The position numbers were made by a program, and so were the translations under genes. Positions 11,030 through 59,443 of a stretch of DNA of 64,000 nt are shown here, piece by piece. Positions within the stretch are counted from its first letter, which is position 1. The number at the start of each line of letters is the position of its first letter. Under the pieces are notes generated by a model that saw only the letters and a program-made list of their open reading frames with translations, did no database searches and had not been told where the DNA came from. The stretch is from Anaspis maculata (Eukaryota > Arthropoda > Insecta > Coleoptera > Scraptiidae): NCBI GenBank assembly GCA_949128115.1, contig OX421962.1:13343262-13407261 (forward strand), read 5' to 3'.

Positions 11030-11655
11030 AAGATCCGATTGAGATTTTGAACCTATGCCAACTAGAAATAGACACTCTAAATGCATCTGTGAAATTTCGA
11101 TTTTTGACGTTTTGAGAGGCCGCCATATTGAACTCTTGCATTTTTCAACCTATCCGATTGGGATCTAGAACCTATACCCACTTGGGGTGGACAACCGAGA
11201 TGCATCTGTCAAATGTGATATTTTGACAGTTCTAGCGCCGCCATATTGAACTTTCGCAATTTTAAACCGATGCGATTGGGATTTTACTCCCATACCCACT
11301 TGAGGTTGACAATCAAAATGCATCTGTCTGATTTTGATTTTTGACGTTCCAATAGGCCGTCATATTGAACTTTTGCATTTTTCAACCGATATGATTGGGA
11401 TTTTGAACCTCTACAACAACTTAAAATAGGCAATCTGAATATATCTGTCAAATTTTTCATTTTGACAGTTTTAAGGCCGCCGCCATATCAAACTTTTGCA
11501 TTTTCAACCGATTCGATTGGGATTTTCAACATAATTGGTACTCCCCACTTGAGGTGGACAATCGAAGTGTATCTATCAAATTTGACGTTTTGACAGTTCC
11601 AAAAGGCTGTCATATCGAACTTTAGCATTTTTCAACCGATTCGGTTGCGATTTAA
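11030..11655. repeat. Minisatellite, about 120-bp unit, five copies
   Basis: The phrase CGATTGGGATTTT recurs at about 11034, 11155, 11272, 11392, 11513 and 11641, giving periods of 117-128 bases. Each unit also contains TTTTGACAGTT or TTTTTGACGTT, GGCCGCCATATTGAACTTT and TTTCAACCGAT. The copies differ by many substitutions. The array stops immediately before the gypsy fragment. Confidence 0.85.
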
Positions 11656-11691: not shown

Positions 11692-13020
11692 TTACTCATG
11701 AGGGTCCTCGATTATTCCCCAACCAATGAGAGGTTTCAGGATGTCGTCTTGTTGCGCCTTCTTTATTTCTTCTAAAGACAGTTTCAAATCGTCACATCCA
11801 AATTCTTCAACTTCAACTACGGTAATCACCACTCCTTTATCTTCTTGCTTCAAACAATGTTCCGGACATGGCCGTCCAAACAAGGCGTCAGCGTTGGAAT
11901 GTGCTTTTCCAGGTCGGTGCTGAATTTCCATCTTATAAACTTGTAGAGTCTTTCGATCCAACAAGCCACTTGTCCTTCTGGATTTTTCAAGTTTGTTAAC
12001 CATTTCAACGCACCATGATCAGTCCTTAGGATGAATCTTCGGCCGTACAGGTATGCATGGAAGTGCTGGATGGATTTCACGACTGCAAGTAACTCTTTTC
12101 TTGTTACACAATAGTTTCGTTCTGGCTTGTTCAACGTGCTGCTGTAGTAGGCCAGAACCTTCTCTTGTCCATTTTGCATTTGCGACAGCACAGCGCCCAG
12201 CGCTTCTTTACGGCAGTCTGTGTCAAGGATGGAAATGCCTTCGTCTCTAGGAAGTGCCAATACGGGACTCGTTATCAGAGCATTTTTCGAGTATTCGAAT
12301 GAATGTTGGTATTCTTCATCGGTCCATCGGAAGACTTTCTTGGCTTCTGTGAGGCGGTGGAGAGGTTTAGCGATCTGGGAGTATCCTTCCACAAACTTCC
12401 GGTAATAGCAACATAACTCAAGGAAACTCCTAACTTCTCAAACGTTCCCTGGCGCGTCTTCCAGTTCTTTACAGCTTCAACTTTGTCCTCGTCGGTGCGA
12501 ATACCATCTTTTGATATCGCGTGACCCAGATACTTCACTTTTCTTTGGATAAGGTGACATTTCTTTGGATTGAGCTTCAAGCCTGCCTCTTGTATTCTCC
12601 GGAAAACGTGCTGGAGTCGGTCCATTTCCTCGTGAAAAGTCTTGCCATGAACAATCACATCGTTCAAGTACACCAGAGCAGTTTTCCATGACAGTCCTCT
12701 CAGGACCTCTTCCATCAACCTGTCGAAGGTCGCCGGGGCATTACATAAACCGAACGGCATGACTTTGGAGTGCCAAAATCCGGCACACGAAACAGAAGCC
12801 GTCTTTTCCTTGTTTTTGGGTCCACTTCTACTTGCCAGTAGCCGCTCTGAAGATCTAACGTAGAAAACCAGCTTGCTCCAGAGACGGCGTCAATTGTGTG
12901 ATCAATTCTTGGCAACGGGTAAGAGTTCTTCTTGGTAACGTCATTGAGATTTCGATAATCGACGCAGAAACGTGTTGTTTTATCTTTCTTCTTCACCAAA
13001 AAAATTGAAGCGAATCGTTC
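11692..13020 (-). pseudogene. Ty3/gypsy pol fragment (reverse transcriptase and RNase H), frameshifted
   Basis: Read on the minus strand, the segment starts near 13020 with FLVKKKDK and CVDYRNLN, then FSTLDLQSGYWQ. It continues with MPFGLCNAPATF and the catalytic box YLNDV (12670-12659), then KYLGHAISKDGI and the RNase H region with DTDCRKEALGAVLSQ, RTDHGALKWL and the linker HRPGKAHSNADAL. The reading frame shifts near 12790, 12430 and 11930, so no single product is possible. The second position of the usual YxDD box is Asn (AAC at 12664-12662) where Asp is expected. Gag, protease, integrase and LTRs are absent. It lies antisense to kuz in an intron and is a dead retrotransposon relic. Confidence 0.93.
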
Positions 13021-36042: not shown

Positions 36043-36210
36043 GGTCCGTGCTGTACCTCCGAGTGCCAAGTCAAGTTCGGCGACAAGTGCCGCGACGACA
36101 ACGGCTGCCGCGACGAGTCCTTCTGCAACGGCCGGAATCCCCAGTGCCCTCCTTCCGTCAACAAACCCAACAAAACAATTTGCAATAAGGAATTCGTGTG
36201 CTTCATGGGC
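36043..36210 (+). CDS. kuz: Kuzbanian/ADAM10 exon: disintegrin domain, second half
   Basis: The exon has 56 codons, phase 0 at both ends. It begins GPCCTSECQVKFGDKCRDD and ends CNKEFVCFMG. The CRDDNGCRDESFC segment corresponds to the disintegrin loop; there is no RGD tripeptide, as is usual for ADAM10. The acceptor CACCAG ends at 36042 and the donor GTAAGT begins at 36211. The next intron is only 86 bases, the smallest in the window. Confidence 0.97.
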
Positions 36211-36296
36211 GTAAGTTTTCCCCCCGCCGCATTCGCCCCCTTCGGCAATGTGTGAAACAACACTCGACTTTGATGTCTCTCTGTGTAACATTCCAG

Positions 36297-36674
36297 GAAT
36301 GCACCGGATCCATCTGCCTGGCGTACGGGCTGGAATCCTGCCAGTGCATCCCGAAAAACGGCGATCCGAAGACGAAGGCCTGCGAGCTCTGCTGCAAGCT
36401 GCCCGGCGACAACCAGCCCTGTCTGAGCTCGTTCGATTGGAACGACATGCCGTACGACATTCCGGACATGTATTCGAAGCCGGGAACGCCGTGCAACGAT
36501 TACAGCGGATATTGCGACGTCTTCCAGATGTGCCGCGAGGTGGATCCGTCGGGACCGCTGGCGACGCTCAGGAAATTGCTGCTGAGCGAGGAGAGCTTCG
36601 AGAGCTTCAAGCAGTGGGTGATGGAGTACTGGTACGCCGTGGCGGCCATCATCGCGCTGGTCATCGTGCTGCTG
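36297..36674 (+). CDS. kuz: Kuzbanian/ADAM10 exon: cysteine-rich domain, stalk and membrane helix
   Basis: This exon has 126 codons in phase 0. It begins ECTGSICLAYGLESCQC, the start of the cysteine-rich domain. It runs through CELCCKLPGDNQPC and KPGTPCNDYSGYCDVFQ, then a stalk (DPSGPLATLRKLLLSEES), and ends in a single transmembrane helix (WYAVAAIIALVIVLL). No EGF repeat lies between the cysteine-rich part and the membrane, as is characteristic of ADAM10 and ADAM17. The acceptor TTCCAG ends at 36296 and the donor GTACGT starts at 36675. If this donor is skipped, the frame stays open to a stop at 36807-36809, giving a short basic tail. Confidence 0.97.
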
Positions 36675-38699
36675 GTACGTAACCCTTTCGGTGTGAGAAT
36701 AAATCTAACGATTTCACTGTTTGTTGCTGTTCGCAAGATCAAGATACTGATCACGATTTGCGATTACAAATCGCGTGAAGCTCGTTCGCGTATCAGACGT
36801 AAGTGTTGAGGTATCTACAGAAGCTAGAGATATTATGAAGCCTGTATTTCCCTGGGTCTTTTCCCTCTGAAAACCGTTCTATACAAAAGCTTCAGCAATT
36901 CCTGCTCAGTATGCTCAAAGGTATTCCCCACGTAATGGTCTTGAGAATGATAATGTATCTCAGCTATATTGTCAACTATTTTTGTTTTTATCGACACTTG
37001 AGGATTGTAAAATAGGTGTCTTAAAATTAGTCATCATTTAGTTACCATTGTAGGGCCTACATATAAAGAAACTAAATCATGAAATTTGTAATGCATTGAT
37101 GTACCAAATGGTTTTGGAAGTACCAAGTATTTGTCATTGATCTCCAGCTAATTGAAGAAAGTCATTTTCGACCATTTACCGATTCTCTCGCAAAATCCTG
37201 CAGCTATTCCCAAAAATTCCCAAGTCTAGTACTTTCAGCTTTAGAGTGATTCAAATACCTAAGTTATGATTTCCCGAATCTCTTATTGTTGCCAAGGGCG
37301 TTGCGAACTTTTTTTCGATCTTTGCAAATGTCAAAATTCAAAGTTCAAAGTAAATATTTTGGGTAGTCGTCGACTGCCACAATATGTACAACATGTCCCT
37401 GAAATGAATACTCGCACAATTATTCACAAAGTGGAGTTTTTGGTTGATTTTATGACCTCCTGTGAAGTTTTTTCTTCTTGGAATTCGACTTTTTCCACGA
37501 CCTCAAACTCGCTCAACTTTGAAGCCACTGACTGACTGGTTACATTTCAGCGGGACTCGACTAATAAGTAGGTTGTCATTTAAAACAAGTTTTTGGTCAA
37601 TTTCAGCTGAGAACCTCAACCTTTTTTATTATTTATTTTTGGCATTCTTTTTGAAAACCAATAAAAACTCGAGCTTTTTAGAACTGTATTCTCGGTTAAT
37701 GTTTCGCTATGGGAGCAAAATCAAATACCTGCCTATTTTTCCTTTTGGCTTGGAATATCTACCATACGAAAACTATGCGAACTATTTCTGGGAAATCCTG
37801 TATAATGGGACCCATTTTTTATTTCTGCCTCATACTAATTTATGCAGTAGATAGGTAGTGTAGTATATCCTGGTCACGGCACCATTTCTGTAGTATATCC
37901 TGATCACGGGGCACCATTTCTGTAGTGTAACCCCGTTTTTGATGTTGGCAGTGATCGTCGTTGTTCCTGCCCTTCCTCACGTCGTTTACCTTTTACCTAC
38001 GTTGTGTGAGTTCTTACTCTAGATGAGAATGTGTCCTTGGGGATGAGGTTTGATTCTTGAATGAAACGCGAATGAATCACAAGCAAAATGAATGTTTATT
38101 GGAAATCAATAAGCTAAGTTTCAAATGAATTTGTTTCTTTTTTCAAAATACCTCAAAACAATAAACTGACAATGATAAAAATGACACAACATGAATGAAG
38201 AACAACAAAATACAAGCAAATGAGACAAGAGAGATCATGACAAATTATTTAGACAATGCAGGAATTTACAACAATGGAATGAACACAAAATCAGATCAAC
38301 AAAACAAACATTCATGAAACATGTCCAACTGTCAATAATTTAATCGCAAAGGAAAAGTGACGTATTCGCTGACAGGCACACATGAGAAGAACACGTCAAA
38401 GAAACCCATGCGTATAGCCTGGTTGATTGCTGAAAAATCCCTTCCCAAATGAACCAAACAAAAATCGAGTGTGAATGAGTCATGATGAAAGACAGAGAAG
38501 TCACTGCAGTAATGCAGTAATGCATTGATCAAGTCAGCGTGAATCGGTGCTTGAACCCCTTTGAAACGTTTTCTTCGTTTAGAAGTTATTCACTTAACAA
38601 CAAAAGGAAACTCGCTCGCTTACGCTTTGGAGAAAACTTTACGCTCAGAAATTTATTTTACACTTTCACACAAACAAAGAAGTCAAATTGACAGATAAG
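36675..38699 (+). other. Intron, unassigned part
   Basis: This is the first part of the 6.2-kb intron before the last exon. Apart from the small tandem repeat at 37858-37922 nothing was recognised; 38090-38320 is rich in GAATGAA and AACAA motifs. Confidence 0.4.
37858..37922 (+). repeat. Tandem duplication of a 32-34-bp LTR-like unit
   Basis: The unit GTAGTATATCCTGGTCACGG followed by CACCATTTCTG occurs twice back to back, with a third start (TGTAGTGTAACCCC) after it. A related string is at 16970-17000. It may be a fragment of an LTR or its primer-site region; this is a guess. Confidence 0.5.
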
Positions 38700-42866: not shown

Positions 42867-43913
42867 GTGTTAAGCACCAAGTATCTTGGTAAACGTCCGA
42901 ACTTCAAGCTGAAATCCGTCACCATCATGCACAGCTCGCCCACAGAAGCCGTACGTCTGCCACCGGACGACGAAAACGGCGTCACCGTTCATCCGGCAGT
43001 CCGTTCCAAGCTTCCCCTCAAACGCAAAGTTCGCAACGGCAAGATCCGCCGCAACAAGAAACGAGTCGTCGGCAAGCCCGGCACCAACAACAAAGAATCC
43101 CCCGTCGGCGGCGTCAACAACAACCTCAACAGTCCCAGCCGCACCAAGAACTCGCCCAAGAAAAAGAAGCGCGTTTCCGCCCCTGTCGGAGCCGAAGAAT
43201 CCAAGAAAACCAAAACGGCCATCGACACGGCCGTCATCGAAGTGCCACACAGCAAGGTGAAGAAGCCCCCCGTCACCGCCAAGAAAAAGTCGTCCAAAAA
43301 GAAGAAGGAAATCATCGACTACAGCAACGCTCAAACCGCCGAAGGTGCCGACGGCAAGAAGGGACTGGCCGAAGTCGTCCACAATCCCCTGACCCCCGAG
43401 GCCGACCCGGTGGGCAAGGTGCAGAACTGGCTGCTGAAGAGCCAGTACGCGCTGCCCAAGTCCAAGTCCACGCCGGCCGGCCTGACGACGAGGAGGAACA
43501 GTCCGCAGAAGAGGCCGACGATACGGCCGGCGAGGGGCGACAAGAGCAAGAGCGTCGGCAATCTGCAGGAGAAGGTGCGGCTGCAGGTGGTGTACAAGCC
43601 GCCGTTCAAGTTCAGTGTGAAATTGCGCAAGCCGGAAAAGACGAGTGTCGTGATCGAGCGTCAAGAACCCGCGGCGAGGAAGGTGCCGAGGACAGGCGTG
43701 CTTGTGCGTAGCGTGAGGGAACCCAAGAAGAAGGACAACGCGGCAGTGCCGACCGCTGCGCCGCAAAATACCGCCCCTCCCGTAGCTAGTCCGAACCAGG
43801 TCGCTCCTCAGAAGAAACCCGACGTCGATGATATCGATTCCAATATACATACCGTCCAGTCCGACCTAGAGGTGTTACTGTCCGAAAGCGAGTTCCTGTT
43901 TTCGGACGACTGA
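42867..43913 (+). CDS. kuz: Kuzbanian/ADAM10 last exon: long basic cytoplasmic tail
   Basis: The exon has 348 codons and a TGA stop. It joins the helix exon in phase 0 and begins VLSTKYLGKRPNFKLKSVTI, the membrane-proximal tail. Residues 25-49 (PTEAVRLPPDDENGVTVHPA onward) and 238-256 (around VYKPPFKFSVKL) look like conserved blocks. Basic clusters lie at residues 48-67 (KLPLKRKV, RRNKKR), 97-103 (PKKKKRV) and 141-148 (KSSKKKKE). The last 30 residues are acidic. The tail is far longer than the short tails of vertebrate ADAM10 proteins; a long tail is, as I recall, usual for insect Kuz. The GTG at 42867 is a splice-joined Val codon, not a start. A 326-codon frame on the opposite strand is a shadow of codon bias. 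Confidence 0.95.
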   Translation: MLSTKYLGKRPNFKLKSVTIMHSSPTEAVRLPPDDENGVTVHPAVRSKLPLKRKVRNGKIRRNKKRVVGKPGTNNKESPVGGVNNNLNSPSRTKNSPKKKKRVSAPVGAEESKKTKTAIDTAVIEVPHSKVKKPPVTAKKKSSKKKKEIIDYSNAQTAEGADGKKGLAEVVHNPLTPEADPVGKVQNWLLKSQYALPKSKSTPAGLTTRRNSPQKRPTIRPARGDKSKSVGNLQEKVRLQVVYKPPFKFSVKLRKPEKTSVVIERQEPAARKVPRTGVLVRSVREPKKKDNAAVPTAAPQNTAPPVASPNQVAPQKKPDVDDIDSNIHTVQSDLEVLLSESEFLFSDD

Positions 43914-46345: not shown

Positions 46346-48290
46346 GATTAGTTTATCATCAAGTACCTACCTTCCCTCCTAACACTGGCGTACTTATTTT
46401 GAGTACTCACCAACCTATACCTATCTACTGAGAAATTCGCAAGTTCAAATCTGATAATGAAGGAACAAGCACGCAATTGAATAATGGATGCGCCTCTTAG
46501 GGCCAAAGCAGACCCAACAGGACAGGGCTCTCAGACTACTACAACACGGGACCGTCAGAATTCCACAGGAACGTGCTTCGCGGCGTCCCTATTGGAGACA
46601 GCGTCTAGTCTGTGGTGGCTCGCGATGATCCCGACAAATTAGTGAAGAACGATATGGCGCATCAATTTTGAAAATAGTTAAATGGACACCACAAATTGAA
46701 AAACGAACATACTTTTCAAGTCCTCTGAAGTAGGCTGACTATGACTATGAATAAAAAACCAAAAACCAAAAAGGACATTTATTTTACTTTTCATAATAAA
46801 TATCGAGGTTCTTCTGTCTACACTACTTTATAAAATCGTTGTCTATTTTTTGACCAATATATATTTCTATATATTTATATTATATTATATTTATTTTACT
46901 TCAATTAATTATTATAATCTAGGTATACATTCTGCATCATATTAAATAATTAATTTAACAATTTAACTGCGTTTGTGTTTACTTCTTCACTGCTTGTAGA
47001 TTGTAGATTAGAGGTGGTCGTTTGGTCTCGGAGGATCCTTCCTGCACTGCGACCTATAAGATCTTTTGTGCGTGACCATGCTTCTATTTCTTCACTGCTT
47101 GGTTCAACCATTTTATCTGGCCTCTTCGCTGTTTTGATCTTTTTTGCGACAAACAATTTTCTTTGCAGTTGGATCTTTTCTCATGTGGAACTGGACAGGC
47201 CCAACATTATTTTAGTGAACGTTGTGATGCTGTCATTTGCTGCATGCTAGGCCTACAGCTTGCCCAAAGTGGGCCCCTCTGGATGCAGCTTGAGAGGGCC
47301 CCCAAAAACCAAAAAAAAATAGAGACGAAAAACGGGGATTGGGAAGCAAAACAGAGTAAGTACATTCGTTCGACTTCGGTACCTATATCAACAAGACTCA
47401 AAAAGAAGATTGGTGAATTTACTATGTTCATGGAACAACAAATAAACCGGCCGAATGCCGTTAGCAAATCGGTAAAAATAAAGGTACGAAGGCTAGCTAG
47501 CACTACACTATTTTCTATGGAAAATAAATGGGGCACCCTCTTCCGGAACTAGCGCGTCTCCCAGCTGCTTCGAGGGTGTGCATCCTCCATTCGAGCGATT
47601 TCCAACTTGAGACAACAGCGGCTACTTTTTCCGAAGAGAAATGCTGTTAGTAGTGGGTAGGGCGTCACGAAATCGTCTAATTTTCCGGATCTCCCGATGC
47701 TGACAGTCGATTCGAGGTAGGCGGACGACGACCACGTCTAGGAAGCGTCGACGCTAGAACACAACAATCAGGATCAGAAAAACACTCGACACACTGGCAC
47801 ATAATGAGATAAATACAATATAGCAACACTGACACCAGCTGAGACGCACTGGGCCCCCACGACGACGCAAGACAGCAGCATAGCGGTCTTGGCTGGCACG
47901 TGGAGGTTAGGTACAGAGTGTTCACGATAAAATTCACCCCCTCCCTCCCTCGAGGATATTCCCTTTGAGATATTTTGAAAAACTAAGAACTTTTTCTTCG
48001 CAATTTTTCTCAGGGACCTTGAATCGATCCTTTAAAAGTTTCTGAATTGTAGGGTGTGACGTGCAACTTTTTCATTTTGAATGCATCACCCGAGGCAACA
48101 CCCTATATATTGCGTCATTTGATGGAGCCTTTTTGCTAATTACAAATACAGGTGTCCCGAAATTAGCTTGCCATACTTCAGCTGCAGATTCTTCGAAAAA
48201 AAAAAAGAACTTAGGTACTTATAAGAAAGAACCTCATAAACTTGGGCCGAAAAATGCTTCTCAAGGGAGCTACAACCCCCGAAATGTAGG
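46346..48290. other. Intergenic, unassigned
   Basis: No supported gene. Open frames of 68-129 codons overlap on both strands around 46950-47540 and show no recognisable domain. The part 47915-48180 contains phrases typical of MITE-like repeats (AGAGTGTTCACG, ACAGGTGTCCCGAAATT). Confidence 0.4.
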
Positions 48291-48302
48291 TCCCTGGAGA
48301 TT
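48291..48302. repeat. Target-site duplication, left copy
   Basis: TCCCTGGAGATT is identical to 49075-49086 and exactly brackets the tandem ribozyme element. Confidence 0.85.
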
Positions 48303-48435
48303 AAACCACGTGGAATTCTGTTAATTCCCTCGCATGCCTGATGCCTTGAAATATAGCACCTGCGGAATGCCTTTGATAGATGGCGCCGCTTGGAGGACTC
48401 ACATATTAGGAGTCCTCTTGGGTGTATATTACCAT

Positions 48436-48571
48436 GAGTTCTCTGACTGCCACAGCATCGGATGGTTGAGCTGATCACGCCTGCGCACTGATGAGCCCCC
48501 AGTAGGGGCGAAACACGTGTCTGTGCAGTTGTTCGGTTCGACCGTCTGATGTTGTGGTAGTCGGAGAGCTT
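48436..48571 (+). ncRNA. Hammerhead ribozyme, type I, copy 1
   Basis: The core is complete. CUGAUGA is at 48488-48494. Stem II is GCCCC 48495-48499 with GGGGC 48505-48509 around loop CAGUA. GAAA is at 48510-48513. Stem III is very short (AC 48513-48514 with GU 48519-48520, loop ACGU). The cleavage triplet GUC is 48519-48521. Stem I pairs 48481-48487 with 48522-48528 (seven pairs, one G.U). After an internal loop (48471-48480 and 48529-48536) stem I continues as 35 uninterrupted pairs, 48436-48470 with 48537-48571, including nine G.U. Every invariant core base is present. Predicted self-cleavage is after 48521. Confidence 0.92.
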
Positions 48572-48856
48572 TGTTTGATAAAAATGCGAGGTGCCCGCTA
48601 TATGGCCCTAAGAGGCGCAATATTCATTTATATTCGCGTGTTTGTTGTCTTTTTAACATTGCTTTACTCGGCTTGAGTATACATGTGTACATCTACCATC
48701 GATGCTCTCTTGGCGACGGTGTTGCTTCACGTGGAATTCTGTTAATTCCCTCGCATGCCTGATGCCTTGAAATATAGCATCTGCGGAATGCCTTTGATAG
48801 ATGGCGCCGCTTGGAGGACTCACATATTAGGAGTCCTCTTGGGTGTATATTACCAT

Positions 48857-48992
48857 GAGTTCTCTGACTGCCACAGCATCGGATGGTTGAGCTGATCACG
48901 CCTGCGCACTGATGAGCCCCCAGTAGGGGCGAAACACGTGTCTGTGCAGTTGTTCGGTTCGACCGTCTGATGTTGTGGTAGTCGGAGAGCTT
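48857..48992 (+). ncRNA. Hammerhead ribozyme, type I, copy 2
   Basis: This second copy is identical in its core to the first and shifted by exactly 421 bases: CUGAUGA 48909-48915, GAAA 48931-48934, cleavage triplet GUC 48940-48942. The 35-pair extension of stem I is also preserved. Hammerheads with such a short stem III are known in other systems to cleave better as dimers, so the tandem arrangement may matter. Confidence 0.92.
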
Positions 48993-49074
48993 TGTTTGAT
49001 AAAAATGCGAGGTGCCCGCTATATGGCTCTAAGAGGCGCAATATTCATTTATATTCGCGTGTTTGTTGTCTTTT

Positions 49075-49086
49075 TCCCTGGAGATT
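49075..49086. repeat. Target-site duplication, right copy
   Basis: TCCCTGGAGATT directly follows the truncated second unit and matches 48291-48302. Confidence 0.85.
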
Positions 49087-50902: not shown

Positions 50903-52059
50903 GACCAATCATCAAGAGGACTTTTCTTCGTGGTTTTATGCGTAGAATACGCTTATGGAATATTCAATGCTGATTTTGGAACCGGAAAAGAAGTTGGTCT
51001 CGGAAAACCGGTACGCTGAAATTTCATAATTTTGCAATAGCTCATGCATGAAACAAATTATACCTACACAAAACAGTTGGGATAATTTATACCTACCCTG
51101 TTTCTTTTCAAGTTAACTCACCCCAAAGTAATTTTTTCATTGATTTTCACCCCCTCGTTCTTATTGAGCATTAAAATTTTAGTGTGCCTACCTACCTATA
51201 TGCTAGATTTCGTAATTCTCTCCTCTATCTTTTTCCTTATTTTTGGTCGTAGAATACGCTCATGGAGTACTCAAGGGCTGATTTTAGAACCATAAAAAGA
51301 TATTCTGCAGGGATTCTTCACCCTGCGGAAACATTTCAGAACGATTTTACCCAAAAAAACGGAGTATCGATGAAGTTCAACAATAGGTACCTACCACCTA
51401 TAGGTATGTATAAGAGCACCTTTTTTTCGTGAAACACTCTGAAATTTCATATCTAATTTTGCATGAAATCTTGAAAAAATACATGCGCAAAAAAAATTTC
51501 ACCACACCTCCTACCAAGTTACTTAACTCCACTTCCGGGCAAATTTTTCAAATGACTTTCACCCCATCTTGTTATTCATAAAAACTTCTGCGTATACCTT
51601 ATACCTCTACTTATTAGGTATGTGTTGAATTTTATCATTTTGTTGCAACTATAGTTTCGGCAATATTGAATAAAAACCATCTTCAGGGACCCACATTCAG
51701 GGGGTGTAGCTCCCTTGTGGAACATTCGAGCATTTTTATATCGAGCAGTTTATATCGAGAGCTTTTATTATGTAAACTTTTTTCTTGTGTTTGATCGTAG
51801 GATCTGCTGCTGATGAAGTAGGTATAGCAGACTAATTTCGAGACACCTTAATTGTATACAGGGTGTTTCGCAATTACGGTCGTTGCAAACTTATAAGGGG
51901 GATTCCTTATCAAAAATGAACCAGGAAAAAATAGACTTCGATCCCAAAATGCTCCCTTGAAAAGTTGCAGGGTGTTCAAAATGAATTTTTCAAATAGAGT
52001 TTTTTGACATAAGTAGGAAGGGGGAGTTCTATTTAAAGAATTCCCCCTGGCGAACAATA
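50903..52059. other. Intergenic, unassigned
   Basis: The phrase TAGAATACGCT(T/C)ATGGA recurs near 50942 and 51250 with similar following sequence, suggesting an old local duplication. A short hairpin, GGGGGAGTTCTATTTAAAGA continuing to CCCCC, lies at 52020-52048. ACAGGGTGTTTCGCAATTAC at 51859 resembles the end of a MITE. Confidence 0.4.
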
Positions 52060-54667: not shown

Positions 54668-56331
54668 TGCCACTGGCAAGATTAATTCCAAAATAATTTA
54701 CCAGAGGTGGGTTAGGCGGAGGTGGAAGGGTAAAAATAACCCTAACTTTTTTTAATGTGAATTGTTTCCAAATTCAACAAGAAATTATGGAATATTGGAG
54801 TTTTCTTACCAAAAAAGGTCCCATTGTTCAACCTCCATAGATGCACCGTTTACGAGATATTTGAGTTTGAATGTATGAAAACGTGGTCAGAAATGCTGAT
54901 TTTTAATTACGATATTCAAGGCGAAAGAAAAACTTTTTCAAAGCAATTTCATTTTTGTTAGGCAGTCAAATTTTGTTAGCCATAAGAAGGTTATTAAATG
55001 TGTTAGGTTTAATTGATTTTCCTTGAACGGTTTCGGTAACACTAAATAAACAACCATCTTCAGGGAGTCCCACCTTTAGGGAGCTGTAGCTCCCTTATGA
55101 AGCATTTCCGGACCCGAAGGCTAAAGGGGACGATAAAATAATGTGTTTCTGAAACGCGAGATGGCGCGGAAACTATTAACATTTTCAAAATTCACTAAAT
55201 AGACCGATTTTGAAAATTCAAACGTTATTATTTTCAGAATATATAATTATTTGATGCTGTAGTCAAAAATTTTGATTTTTGTATTTTTTAGAAAAAAAAT
55301 TTCAATTTTCTCAAATTTTTAGAAAAAAATTAGAAAATCTCAGGTAGTCATTTTATTCTGTGGTGAATATTGTATAAAAGCCTTTTTTCAAAATTCCAAT
55401 ATCATCAATAGTATCGACCGAAATCAATTTTGAATATTTCCCTTTGAAGTTCACCGCGCGCCGCCCACCTGCAAGCGCGAGCGGATCCCATCTGGTATCA
55501 TCATACATTATGTGATGGAGCCGGGATTAAACCCCATGCACAATTATGACCTACCTACTGAACTTAAACCAAGGGAATCATTTGAATTATCTGAACCAAG
55601 AAATCATTAGAATTGATCTGGCCTAAAAACTAAAAACTATTTTCTCTCCCTGGGCACCACAATTATTTATAGTCCGCAAGAAATAAGACCTCTGTCGTAA
55701 TAGCAAAGTTAATGCCTGGACAGTATCTCCAGTCCCGTAGAAAATCCCAACAGTGTAACAATTAACTGGGCAATACCTAATCGGTTACTTCTTTGATTTT
55801 AATCATTAATAGCTTCGTGACTTGATATTGATGGAATATACTCCAGAAATAAATATGTAAGATAAGTGAAAAGCTACTATGAAAAAAGTACAGTACGGGC
55901 TTTATTTTGTTTTTGTTTTGCACAAAATGTACCTATATAACGAGATATGGAAAACGCTATCCGTCAAGTTGGCCTGTAAATCAAAAAGTAACAGTTACAG
56001 AGATGTATACTTTTCAAATGTTATAGGAAACTGCGGCTCACAAAATGAGTAAAACTAATTTTTGTTGGAATCAAATTCTTGAAACATTCGAAAATTCAAA
56101 AAAAAGTTCACCAATACACCAACGGTACACCCTGGTGCAAGTACAACAACCTTATCTCAGCAGTCTGTCGCCCCTTGGGAGCAGCCAATTCCAATCTTTG
56201 ATTTCAATAAAAATTTAGAACAGGCATTGAACCCAGTAACTGGAAGCTATGGGAAGATAAAGAGTGGTCGATCCTAGCGTAAATATCCCATAGCGGCCTT
56301 ACCGTTCAAGATAGAAAAAAAGAATAGTATT
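54668..56331. other. Intergenic, unassigned
   Basis: AT-rich. The phrase CTTCAGGGA(G)TCCCAC near 55060 also occurs near 51685 (CTTCAGGGACCCACATTCAGGG, shortened here), hinting at an old repeat shared with 51.7 kb. No gene recognised. Confidence 0.4.
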
Positions 56332-58794: not shown

Positions 58795-59443
58795 AGATAG
58801 ATTTCAACCTCGGAAAAAATATGGACGTCCTGAAAATTTGATATTTTGTTCAGAATTGAGTGCTCTACAACATATCCAAAATCGCCAAAAATCGCACTCG
58901 GGGGTTTTGAGTTATTGGAGGGGGAGTAAAAAATTGCTGGTAAAAATGGAGGGGATGGAACCCGTCAACCCATTGGATGCGAATACATTATAGTTCGACG
59001 TATCATATCCCATTGATACCATTTTGGCACAAAAAGTGTCCATCATTGTTGAAGGGGAGTAGTGGGGGGGCTAAGCTCTGCTAGGTGGTCCATTTTGTTT
59101 TTATGACCATGTAGAACCGATCACGACAAGTTTAGTATCTTTTCCGACTAAATCCAATCTCTTGAACTCATATCCGATGTGCAAATTCGGATGAAAACAA
59201 GTTTGAACAAGTTAACTTGAGAAAACTAGTTTTTTCTTTGACAATTTTGCCGATTTTTTTTGTACTGTTGGAGGTGTTCATTTCCAGAAAATTTCCAGGG
59301 ACCATTGAATTAAAGTGTGTTCTCCACAAAAATCATCTACTCGAAGTATAATTTTGTTTCTCGAGTTTAAAAAATCGATTTGAACTTGAGCCGGCGCGGC
59401 GCGTCGTCTACTACTGACCAGAACACTACAACATGCACTTTTA
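58795..59443. mobile_element. Single-arm partial copy of foldback element B
   Basis: The sequence matches 7060-7715 in direct orientation throughout, with landmarks CCTCGG, GACGTCCTGAAAATTTGA, TGGAACCCGTCAA, CAAAAAGTGTC and TTGTACTGTTGGAGG-like. The opposite arm is missing, so this is a half element or the unit from which the foldback arose. Confidence 0.75.

Follow-up and report, generated by a model that had tools for sequence, protein, structure and literature searches.

Retrozyme arrays with a head-to-head, two-end architecture and their likeness to Penelope-like insertions

How does a short ribozyme-bearing repeat with no long coding frame come to be inserted at dispersed places in an animal genome? 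The window, by which we mean the whole 64,000-nucleotide stretch of DNA that was analyzed, raises this question with an array of tandem units that each carry a hammerhead. Penelope-like elements have been favored as the mobilizer of retrozymes because the two have hammerheads and a tandem layout in common and co-occur (PMC7229834, PMC7761336), while LINEs have also been named as candidates (PMC7229834). We have compared the window copy with its relatives in the host genome and with the Penelope-like elements of the same genome.

The insertion in the window

The array contains 1.83 units of a 421-bp repeat, all in a single direction (Table 1). The two hammerhead units had been predicted to lie exactly 421 bases apart, and this is the spacing that we obtained; where both copies of the unit can be compared (48307-48654 and 48728-49075), they show 2 differences in 348 bases, at 48359 and 48607, each a C/T change. 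A 12-bp target-site duplication, TCCCTGGAGATT, encloses the insert, also as predicted, and with up to 1 mismatch allowed this sequence has a single further match in the window, at 59290-59301. The T at 49075 can be assigned to either the unit or the duplication. The insert had been placed at 48303..49074, and this extent holds for the array but not for its first 4 bases, AAAC, which mismatch the unit at all of 48303-48306 and therefore fall outside it. AAAC is the reverse complement of GTTT, the 4 target bases beyond the right duplication. As to the proposed lack of coding capacity, the longest ATG/GTG/TTG frame wholly within the insert has 68 codons and lies on the minus strand. Besides the 421-bp unit, no direct repeats of at least 12 nt were found inside the insert.

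With the insert taken out together with one of the two duplication copies, the joined flanks aligned to a minus-strand stretch of the same window (51618-51856) over 243 columns, with zero gap at the junction. This gapless alignment indicates that the retrozyme copy entered a dispersed repeat that was already present. The host repeat family that served as the insertion target is present in the window at 47900-48302, 51618-51856, and 55052-55107. In the genome, the best 40 of 1,738 candidates scored show 72 to 79% identity, and several copies among these 40 form inverted pairs ∼0.5 kb apart.

Table 1. Retrozyme insertion and associated features (window positions; sites A and B are defined in the text)
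Feature	Position	Strand	Basis
Target-site duplication, left copy, 12 bp	48291..48302		Repeat match and empty-site alignment
Extra bases AAAC at 5' junction, outside unit	48303..48306		Mismatches to unit
Retrozyme array, 1.83 x 421 bp, single direction	48307..49074	+	Repeat comparison
Predicted 39-bp helix extending helix I, 5' strand, phases 336-374	48436..48474	+	Fold
Hammerhead ribozyme 1, predicted cut 48521/48522	48481..48528	+	Rfam, descriptor, fold
Stem III ACACGUGU, self-complementary; predicted partner in the double hammerhead is its counterpart 421 nt further downstream	48513..48520	+	
Monomer from one predicted cut to the next, phases 1-421, predicted RNA circle	48522..48942	+	
Predicted 39-bp helix, 3' strand, phases 12-50	48533..48571	+	Fold
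Site A, phases 55-64; one arm of relatives has its outer end here	48576..48585	+	End mapping
Site B, phases 126-137; the other arm of relatives has its outer end here	48647..48658	+	End mapping
Hammerhead ribozyme 2, predicted cut 48942/48943	48902..48949	+	Rfam, descriptor
Site B of second unit, real 3' end of the window insertion	49068..49074	+	End mapping
Target-site duplication, right copy, 12 bp	49075..49086		Repeat match and empty-site alignment
Related host repeat without insert (paralogous empty site)	51618..51856	-	170/243 identities, gapless junction

Hammerheads and the predicted RNA fold

Both hammerheads match Rfam family RF00163 (48482-48527 and 48903-48948) with 25.6 bits and an E value of 0.0014 each. 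As this is below the Rfam gathering score of 34, a default Rfam scan of the window lists no hammerhead. A hammerhead descriptor found 2 sites in the 64-kb window, both in the retrozyme array, and 0 sites in 200 dinucleotide shuffles of the window. Each ribozyme has the CUGANGA/GAAA/NUH core of a type I hammerhead, with three helices and an open-ended helix I. Stem I has 7 pairs including one G-U, stem II is GCCCC-CAGUA-GGGGC, and the cleavage triplet is GUC, as in the type I motif of the original prediction. Stem III consists of just an A-U and a C-G pair capped by an ACGU loop, and in the predicted fold an internal loop of helix I separates its 7-bp part from a 9-bp part.

The stem III sequence ACACGUGU is self-complementary, and adjacent units can therefore form a double hammerhead with 8 stem III pairs. 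When two units were folded, the double hammerhead reached -217.4, equal to the unconstrained optimum, compared to -198.8 for separate hammerheads and -202.8 with their stem III open, under an energy model that leaves out the ribozyme core and tertiary contacts. Given the 2-pair stem III and this modeled preference, one motif on its own may cut poorly, and we take the double hammerhead of two neighboring units as a lead. This lead is in line with the dimer-dependent ribozymes described for amphibians, and axolotl HHR_Amex1 resembles the window retrozyme in having a palindromic tetraloop on a weak stem III (PMC7229834).

The predicted 421-nt circle folds at -167 kcal/mol against a shuffle mean of -123 (z = -7.8), with 0 of 200 shuffles as stable. 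The minus-strand circle also has 0 of 200 shuffles as stable, at a z of -4.0. The computed circle is highly self-paired, like those of other animal retrozymes, with 66% of its bases paired, slightly under the "above 70%" given in PMC4918200. It includes an uninterrupted 39-bp helix between phases 12-50 and 336-374 with ten G-U pairs, phase 1 being the base that follows the predicted cut, and every locus position was mapped to a unit phase in this numbering. The stronger fold excess on the ribozyme strand, together with the ten G-U pairs, points to a folded structure that would be maintained as RNA of the ribozyme sense. With one monomer taken per locus at 39 loci, this helix shows 110 pair-keeping versus 10 pair-breaking changes, a count uncorrected for the shared ancestry of the loci. 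Compensatory double changes in the helix number 0 over the same 39 loci, which can be explained by the fact that divergence is too low. Among the 99 full monomers of the first locus set described below, the core words of the ribozyme are kept in 94 and the seven-pair stem I in 97.

We also considered a Pol III promoter, using the type 2 A-box and B-box consensus strings, and rejected it. An A box (48463-48473) and the B-box core GGTTCGA (48535-48541) are present, but the unit lacks the fuller GWTCRANNC, and A boxes are commonplace, with 48 matches in the window over both strands. The A box and partial B box occupy the two helix I strands. ARAGORN found no tRNA over the window.

Relatives in the host genome and their outer ends

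In the host assembly (757.8 Mb, 50 contigs), a ribozyme pattern with up to 2 mismatches gave 593 + 544 = 1,137 matches and its reversed control 0 + 0. One ribozyme pattern had 0 matches in viral contigs, and a different one had 0 in prokaryote genome contigs. The loop variants CAGTA, CAATA, and CAACA among the genome matches listed suggest several subfamilies. We examined two sets of loci. The first comprises the window copy and 39 others, the best 40 of 1,610 candidates with the insert as query. The second comprises 16 further loci drawn from the ribozyme match list, 9 picked for closely spaced minus and plus ribozymes and 7 as lone ribozymes.

Most of these loci are head-to-head inverted arrays, in which a minus arm is followed by a plus arm (43/56; 31/40 in the first set and 12/16 in the second), and tail-to-tail arrays number 0 of the 56 examined. 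Since the second set was partly picked for paired opposite ribozymes, 43/56 is no unbiased frequency, while 3 of the 7 lone-ribozyme picks turned out to be head-to-head. A by-eye count of neighbors within 5 kb among the matches listed (∼100 places on C1 and part of C2, exact matches only) gave 15 minus-then-plus and 0 plus-then-minus. Single-direction arrays account for 9/40 loci in the first set, the window copy included.

The outer ends in the first set cluster at two places in the unit, site A at phases 55-64 and site B at phases 120-140, ∼58 nt and ∼131 nt past the predicted ribozyme cut and thus ∼73 nt apart. In the predicted fold, site A has few paired bases and adjoins the base of the 39-bp helix; site B lies within a small stem-loop. 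The end classes (A, phases 50-66; B, phases 118-142) were fixed after the first set and left unchanged for the second. The 31 inverted loci of the first set comprise 25 with A/B ends, 1 with B/B ends, and 5 where one or both ends fall outside the two classes (both ends of L021 and one end each of L025, L037, L038, and L045), and the second set gave A/B in 12/12. Overall, among the 38 inverted inserts whose two ends could both be classified, 37 carry one end of each kind; the probability of at least 37/38, were each end independently A or B, is 1.4e-10. The remaining B/B locus, L036, is one where no duplication was found. This A/B rule does not depend on how the loci were chosen. The arms of inverted loci are of unequal lengths, and the single-direction loci of both sets end at A in 5 cases and at B in 8.

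Many of the CAATA and CAACA ribozymes are lone among the matches listed, and one of them, L082, is an A/B inverted locus. The largest array, L021 (G000:C3:37316900-37326400), has about 4.5 + 1.9 units in minus and 12.3 units in plus orientation, with 0.13% divergence within arms, outer phases of 147 and 106 that belong to neither A nor B, and a 12-bp duplication.

Duplications of 12 to 15 bp surround the whole insert at 38/56 loci. In the first set, they were found at 27/40 loci, being exactly 12 bp in 17 and 13 to 15 bp in 10, and a wider search found them at 11/16 loci of the second set, again at 12 to 15 bp. The target sites are AT-rich with hints of a dyad. In an alignment of 16 of the 17 loci with an exactly 12-bp duplication, with L021 left out and the A end turned left, A occurs at position -3 in 11/16 and at -2 in 9/16, T at +14 in 9/16 and at +15 in 10/16, and position 12 is A or T in 16/16, the sole background being the 57% AT of the fetched loci.

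The genome search that the original prediction had called for thus turned up further unit-length tandem copies with flanking duplications, and the classification as a nonautonomous retroelement of the animal retrozyme type is upheld by the tandem type I units, the duplications at 38/56 loci, the 1,137 genome matches, and the mean divergence of ∼2% between loci. As in the animal retrozymes described in PMC7229834, the family consists of short tandem units with a type I hammerhead each and no long frame, has a GC content below 50% (here 48.2%), is dispersed with duplications of more than 4 bp, and has a strongly self-paired predicted circle. The 421-nt unit is slightly over the 170 to 400 nt given there for circles and within the 150 to 450 bp given for repeats. 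The hammerhead repeats of schistosomes, newts, and cave crickets, likened here by description, are likewise type I in short animal repeats (PMC4918200, PMC7229834), and a figure legend in PMC4918200 lists one from an arthropod, the tick Argas monolakensis. Plant LTR retrozymes are also nonautonomous, ribozyme-bearing, and dimeric in arrangement. They differ, however, in having a type III hammerhead, an LTR, a PBS, a PPT, a 4-bp duplication, and ribozymes 600 to 1000 bp apart (PMC7761336, PMC7229834), whereas the window element has type I hammerheads and its family 12- to 15-bp duplications.

What distinguishes this family from the animal retrozymes as described in PMC7229834 is that the loci examined are mostly head-to-head with two fixed outer ends. 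In that main animal retrozyme paper, the words "inverted" and "head-to-head" are absent, and in PMC4918200 and PMC7761336 "inverted" occurs once each, in another sense. A search of one open-access library by these words did not find "retrozyme" together with "head-to-head." The window element itself joins the animal retrozymes as a new member, and the head-to-head, two-end architecture of its relatives appears to be new.

To compare the two arms, we used the first set, where 39 loci supply 99 full monomers. Monomers of the same arm diverge by 0.15% on average (133 pairs), those of opposite arms at a locus by 0.13% (92 pairs), and those of different loci by 1.95% (4,626 pairs). L021 supplies 72 of the 133 within-arm and 64 of the 92 between-arm pairs, and after its removal the values are 0.18% within an arm (61 pairs, 16 loci) and 0.26% between arms (28 pairs, 11 loci). 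At the 12 loci testable for arm similarity, where both arms contain a full monomer, the arm-to-arm distance is below that to the median other locus in 12/12. In 6/12 the opposite arm is nearer than any other locus, and in 2/12 it is tied with one; for L014, L019, L023, and L025, 2 to 7 of the 38 other loci are closer than the opposite arm. These results support a common source family for the arms of one locus, and often a common source, but as the arms are mutually closest at only 6/12 loci, they do not prove a single template molecule. The retrozyme family is young and its informative differences are few.

Penelope-type integration and its alternatives

GIY-YIG matches are frequent in the host genome, with 134 among the matches listed (the best 150 of 378 candidates scored), and both of two loci tested have a reverse transcriptase and GIY-YIG in one frame, with RVT_1 under the curated cut-off in one. 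Inverted arms were observed at 12/18 GIY-YIG Penelope-like loci (L048 left out), a fraction biased by the fact that 7 loci were picked for close opposite-strand GIY-YIG matches. Seven of these 12 inverted loci have a duplication of at least 10 bp at their outer ends, and 6 of the 7 copies (L053, L055, L059, L060, L063, and L066) carry an extra 35 to 45 nt at one end only. L061 has an 11-nt tail, L050 has just a 9-bp match and no tail, and a duplication of at least 9 bp is absent from L054, L062, L064, and L065.

Four of the Penelope-like copies are near-perfect palindromes through their centers, with 96 to 99.6% identity (L060, 488-1985; L061, 423-2150; L063, 519-2524; L066, 468-2347). The retrozyme arrays have no such palindromic centers, which suggests that the two cDNAs can be joined in two ways. 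The miRNA-like Rfam hits in Penelope-like loci fall on palindromes.

No clear sequence similarity was found between the retrozyme unit and 12 Penelope-like or GIY-YIG loci, the best hits having an E value of 1.1. We regard the 12- to 20-nt hits near sites A and B in L049, L057, and L059 (E values of 1.1 to 3.9) as chance; those in L059 are opposite in orientation to the 3' end of the element and away from its real ends. The hammerhead descriptor found no site in 12 GIY-YIG loci, and Rfam gave no hammerhead with an E value of up to 10 in 5 of the 12. One of the 12 loci scanned, L048, is a GIY-YIG gene unlike a PLE. With no clear shared sequence and no detectable hammerhead in these loci, the putative partner family is recognized by its scar and not by homology.

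The purified Penelope protein PAc offers a biochemical counterpart. It starts reverse transcription at two adjacent internal RNA sites downstream of a hammerhead, the stretch between them becoming the tail. Both strands are cut and extended by this enzyme, which has a preference for AT-rich DNA and a predicted dimeric state (PMC11167929). A one-sided tail like that of the six Penelope-like copies in the host genome is described for Penelope elements, there with 8- to 10-bp duplications (PMC3846280). Inverted arms, a one-sided tail, and a duplication, which characterize Penelope-like integration, are found in the retrozyme family as well (37/38 classifiable inverted inserts). The retrozymes share with Penelope-like GIY-YIG elements the head-to-head arms, the tail at one end, the AT-rich target, and the duplication (PMC11167929, PMC3846280), and apparently also two adjacent internal start sites downstream of a hammerhead, with both strands primed (PMC11167929). 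The order of hammerhead cut, site A at ∼58 nt, and site B at ∼131 nt mirrors the PAc RNA in miniature. There are also differences. The retrozyme tail is 73 nt compared to 30 to 40 nt in the Penelope-like elements described (PMC11167929, PMC3846280) and 35 to 45 nt in those of the same genome, and its duplications are 12 to 15 bp compared to 8 to 10 bp in rotifer Penelope-like elements (PMC3846280). It also differs in its asymmetric centers, its multi-unit arms, and its lack of a reverse transcriptase or endonuclease frame. With no frame above 68 codons wholly inside the insert, the retrozyme is not a PLE and appears merely to be integrated like one.

On the strength of the head-to-head arrays with two fixed outer ends, we consider it probable that the element is a nonautonomous animal retrozyme integrated by Penelope-type machinery, where we infer the cleavage, the circles, and the enzyme. 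Transcripts of tandem copies would be cut at each hammerhead, probably best as the double hammerhead of adjacent units that folding favors, and the 421-nt monomers would be closed into circles, as known for other animal retrozymes. A Penelope-like GIY-YIG protein, probably a dimer, may then bind the RNA near the two sites ∼73 nt apart, cut AT-rich DNA with a 12-nt stagger, and start reverse transcription from both target ends. At one target end this putative enzyme would start at site A and at the other at site B, leaving the scar that we observe. Each cDNA may circle its template several times. The two cDNA ends would be joined head to head wherever they happen to meet, in some cases with a few overlapping or filler bases. 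Priming at one end only would result in a single-direction array, of which the window copy would be a B-end example.

Several other routes could be proposed. The ends of LINE insertions are set by the 3' end of the RNA. Were the retrozyme mobilized by LINE target-primed reverse transcription, with the inverted arms arising by ordinary twin priming or through template switches and the start sites not paired in any fixed way, such ends would be expected, whereas the outer ends observed lie at two fixed internal sites, one of each in 37/38. The similar one-sided tail of Penelope-like elements in the host genome also argues against LINEs, so that we judge this route improbable, even though duplications of 12 to 15 bp are LINE compatible as well, LINEs are among the candidates in PMC7229834, and LINE-like 15-bp duplications flank the Nematostella repeats of PMC4918200. 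Fold-back self-priming, discussed for Penelope in PMC3846280, in which a strand folds and is copied back to give a palindrome, would account for the head-to-head orientation, and four Penelope-like copies are indeed symmetric through the center. For the inverted retrozyme arrays it is very improbable, since their arms meet at unrelated phases: a phase difference of at most 20 nt was found at 3/31 center junctions against 3.0 expected, with apparent overlaps of at most 7 nt or gaps of at most 17 nt, and the unequal arms end at two different sites. We give almost no credence to a satellite DNA spread by unequal exchange with the hammerheads as relics. The units are tandem and L021 has a 12-unit arm, but the arrays are short and dispersed, 38/56 loci have 12- to 15-bp duplications, and the window copy has a paralogous empty site.

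The alternative that bears most directly on the circle is a template consisting of a linear multimeric transcript, with cleavage just trimming it or having no role in insertion. In vitro, PAc can insert RNA that has not been processed, and mutating the hammerhead does not prevent insertion (PMC11167929), and linear multimeric RNA from one homogeneous array could likewise yield homogeneous units. Near-identical multi-unit arms that start at internal sites are, however, simplest on a circle, and retrozyme circles are known for coral, mussel, and axolotl (PMC7229834). We therefore regard a linear template as possible but unlikely and retain Penelope-type integration from a circle.

A more specific reading, for which belief and doubt seem to us evenly balanced, is that the copying of animal retrozymes falls to a dimer of a Penelope-like reverse transcriptase, which grips a single RNA circle at two start sites, both of them obligatory and the two not equivalent, each feeding one end of the 12-nt staggered cut, and that both cDNAs are copied around that one circle and then joined head to head. 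Under this reading, the one-of-each rule (37/38) would make the two start sites a built-in asymmetric pair and not alternatives. Such pairing was not seen for PAc in vitro, where the start site is the same for top and bottom strands as described in PMC11167929. If true, an asymmetric pair of start sites would account as well for the tail that Penelope elements carry on one side.

The scar provides locus-by-locus evidence on the mobilizer of retrozymes that is independent of shared hammerheads, layout, and co-occurrence, and the main value of the two-end architecture is that it makes the mobilization of animal retrozymes testable. For the study of how these enzymes initiate on two strands, the 421-nt RNA and its two mapped start sites offer a substrate much smaller than an entire Penelope element.

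The window contains other features apart from the retrozyme. A tandem array of about five 118- to 119-bp units with 72% matches lies at 11032-11653, and remains of a retrotransposon polymerase lie on the minus strand at 11850-12760, with RNase H-like Pfam matches in 11850-12389. A very basic 348-codon open frame at 42867-43913 on the plus strand has no Pfam match and is possibly a coding exon. An exon of an ADAM10-like metalloprotease is found at 36198-36809 on the plus strand, matching Pfam ADAM10_Cys-rich with an E value of 2.6e-18.
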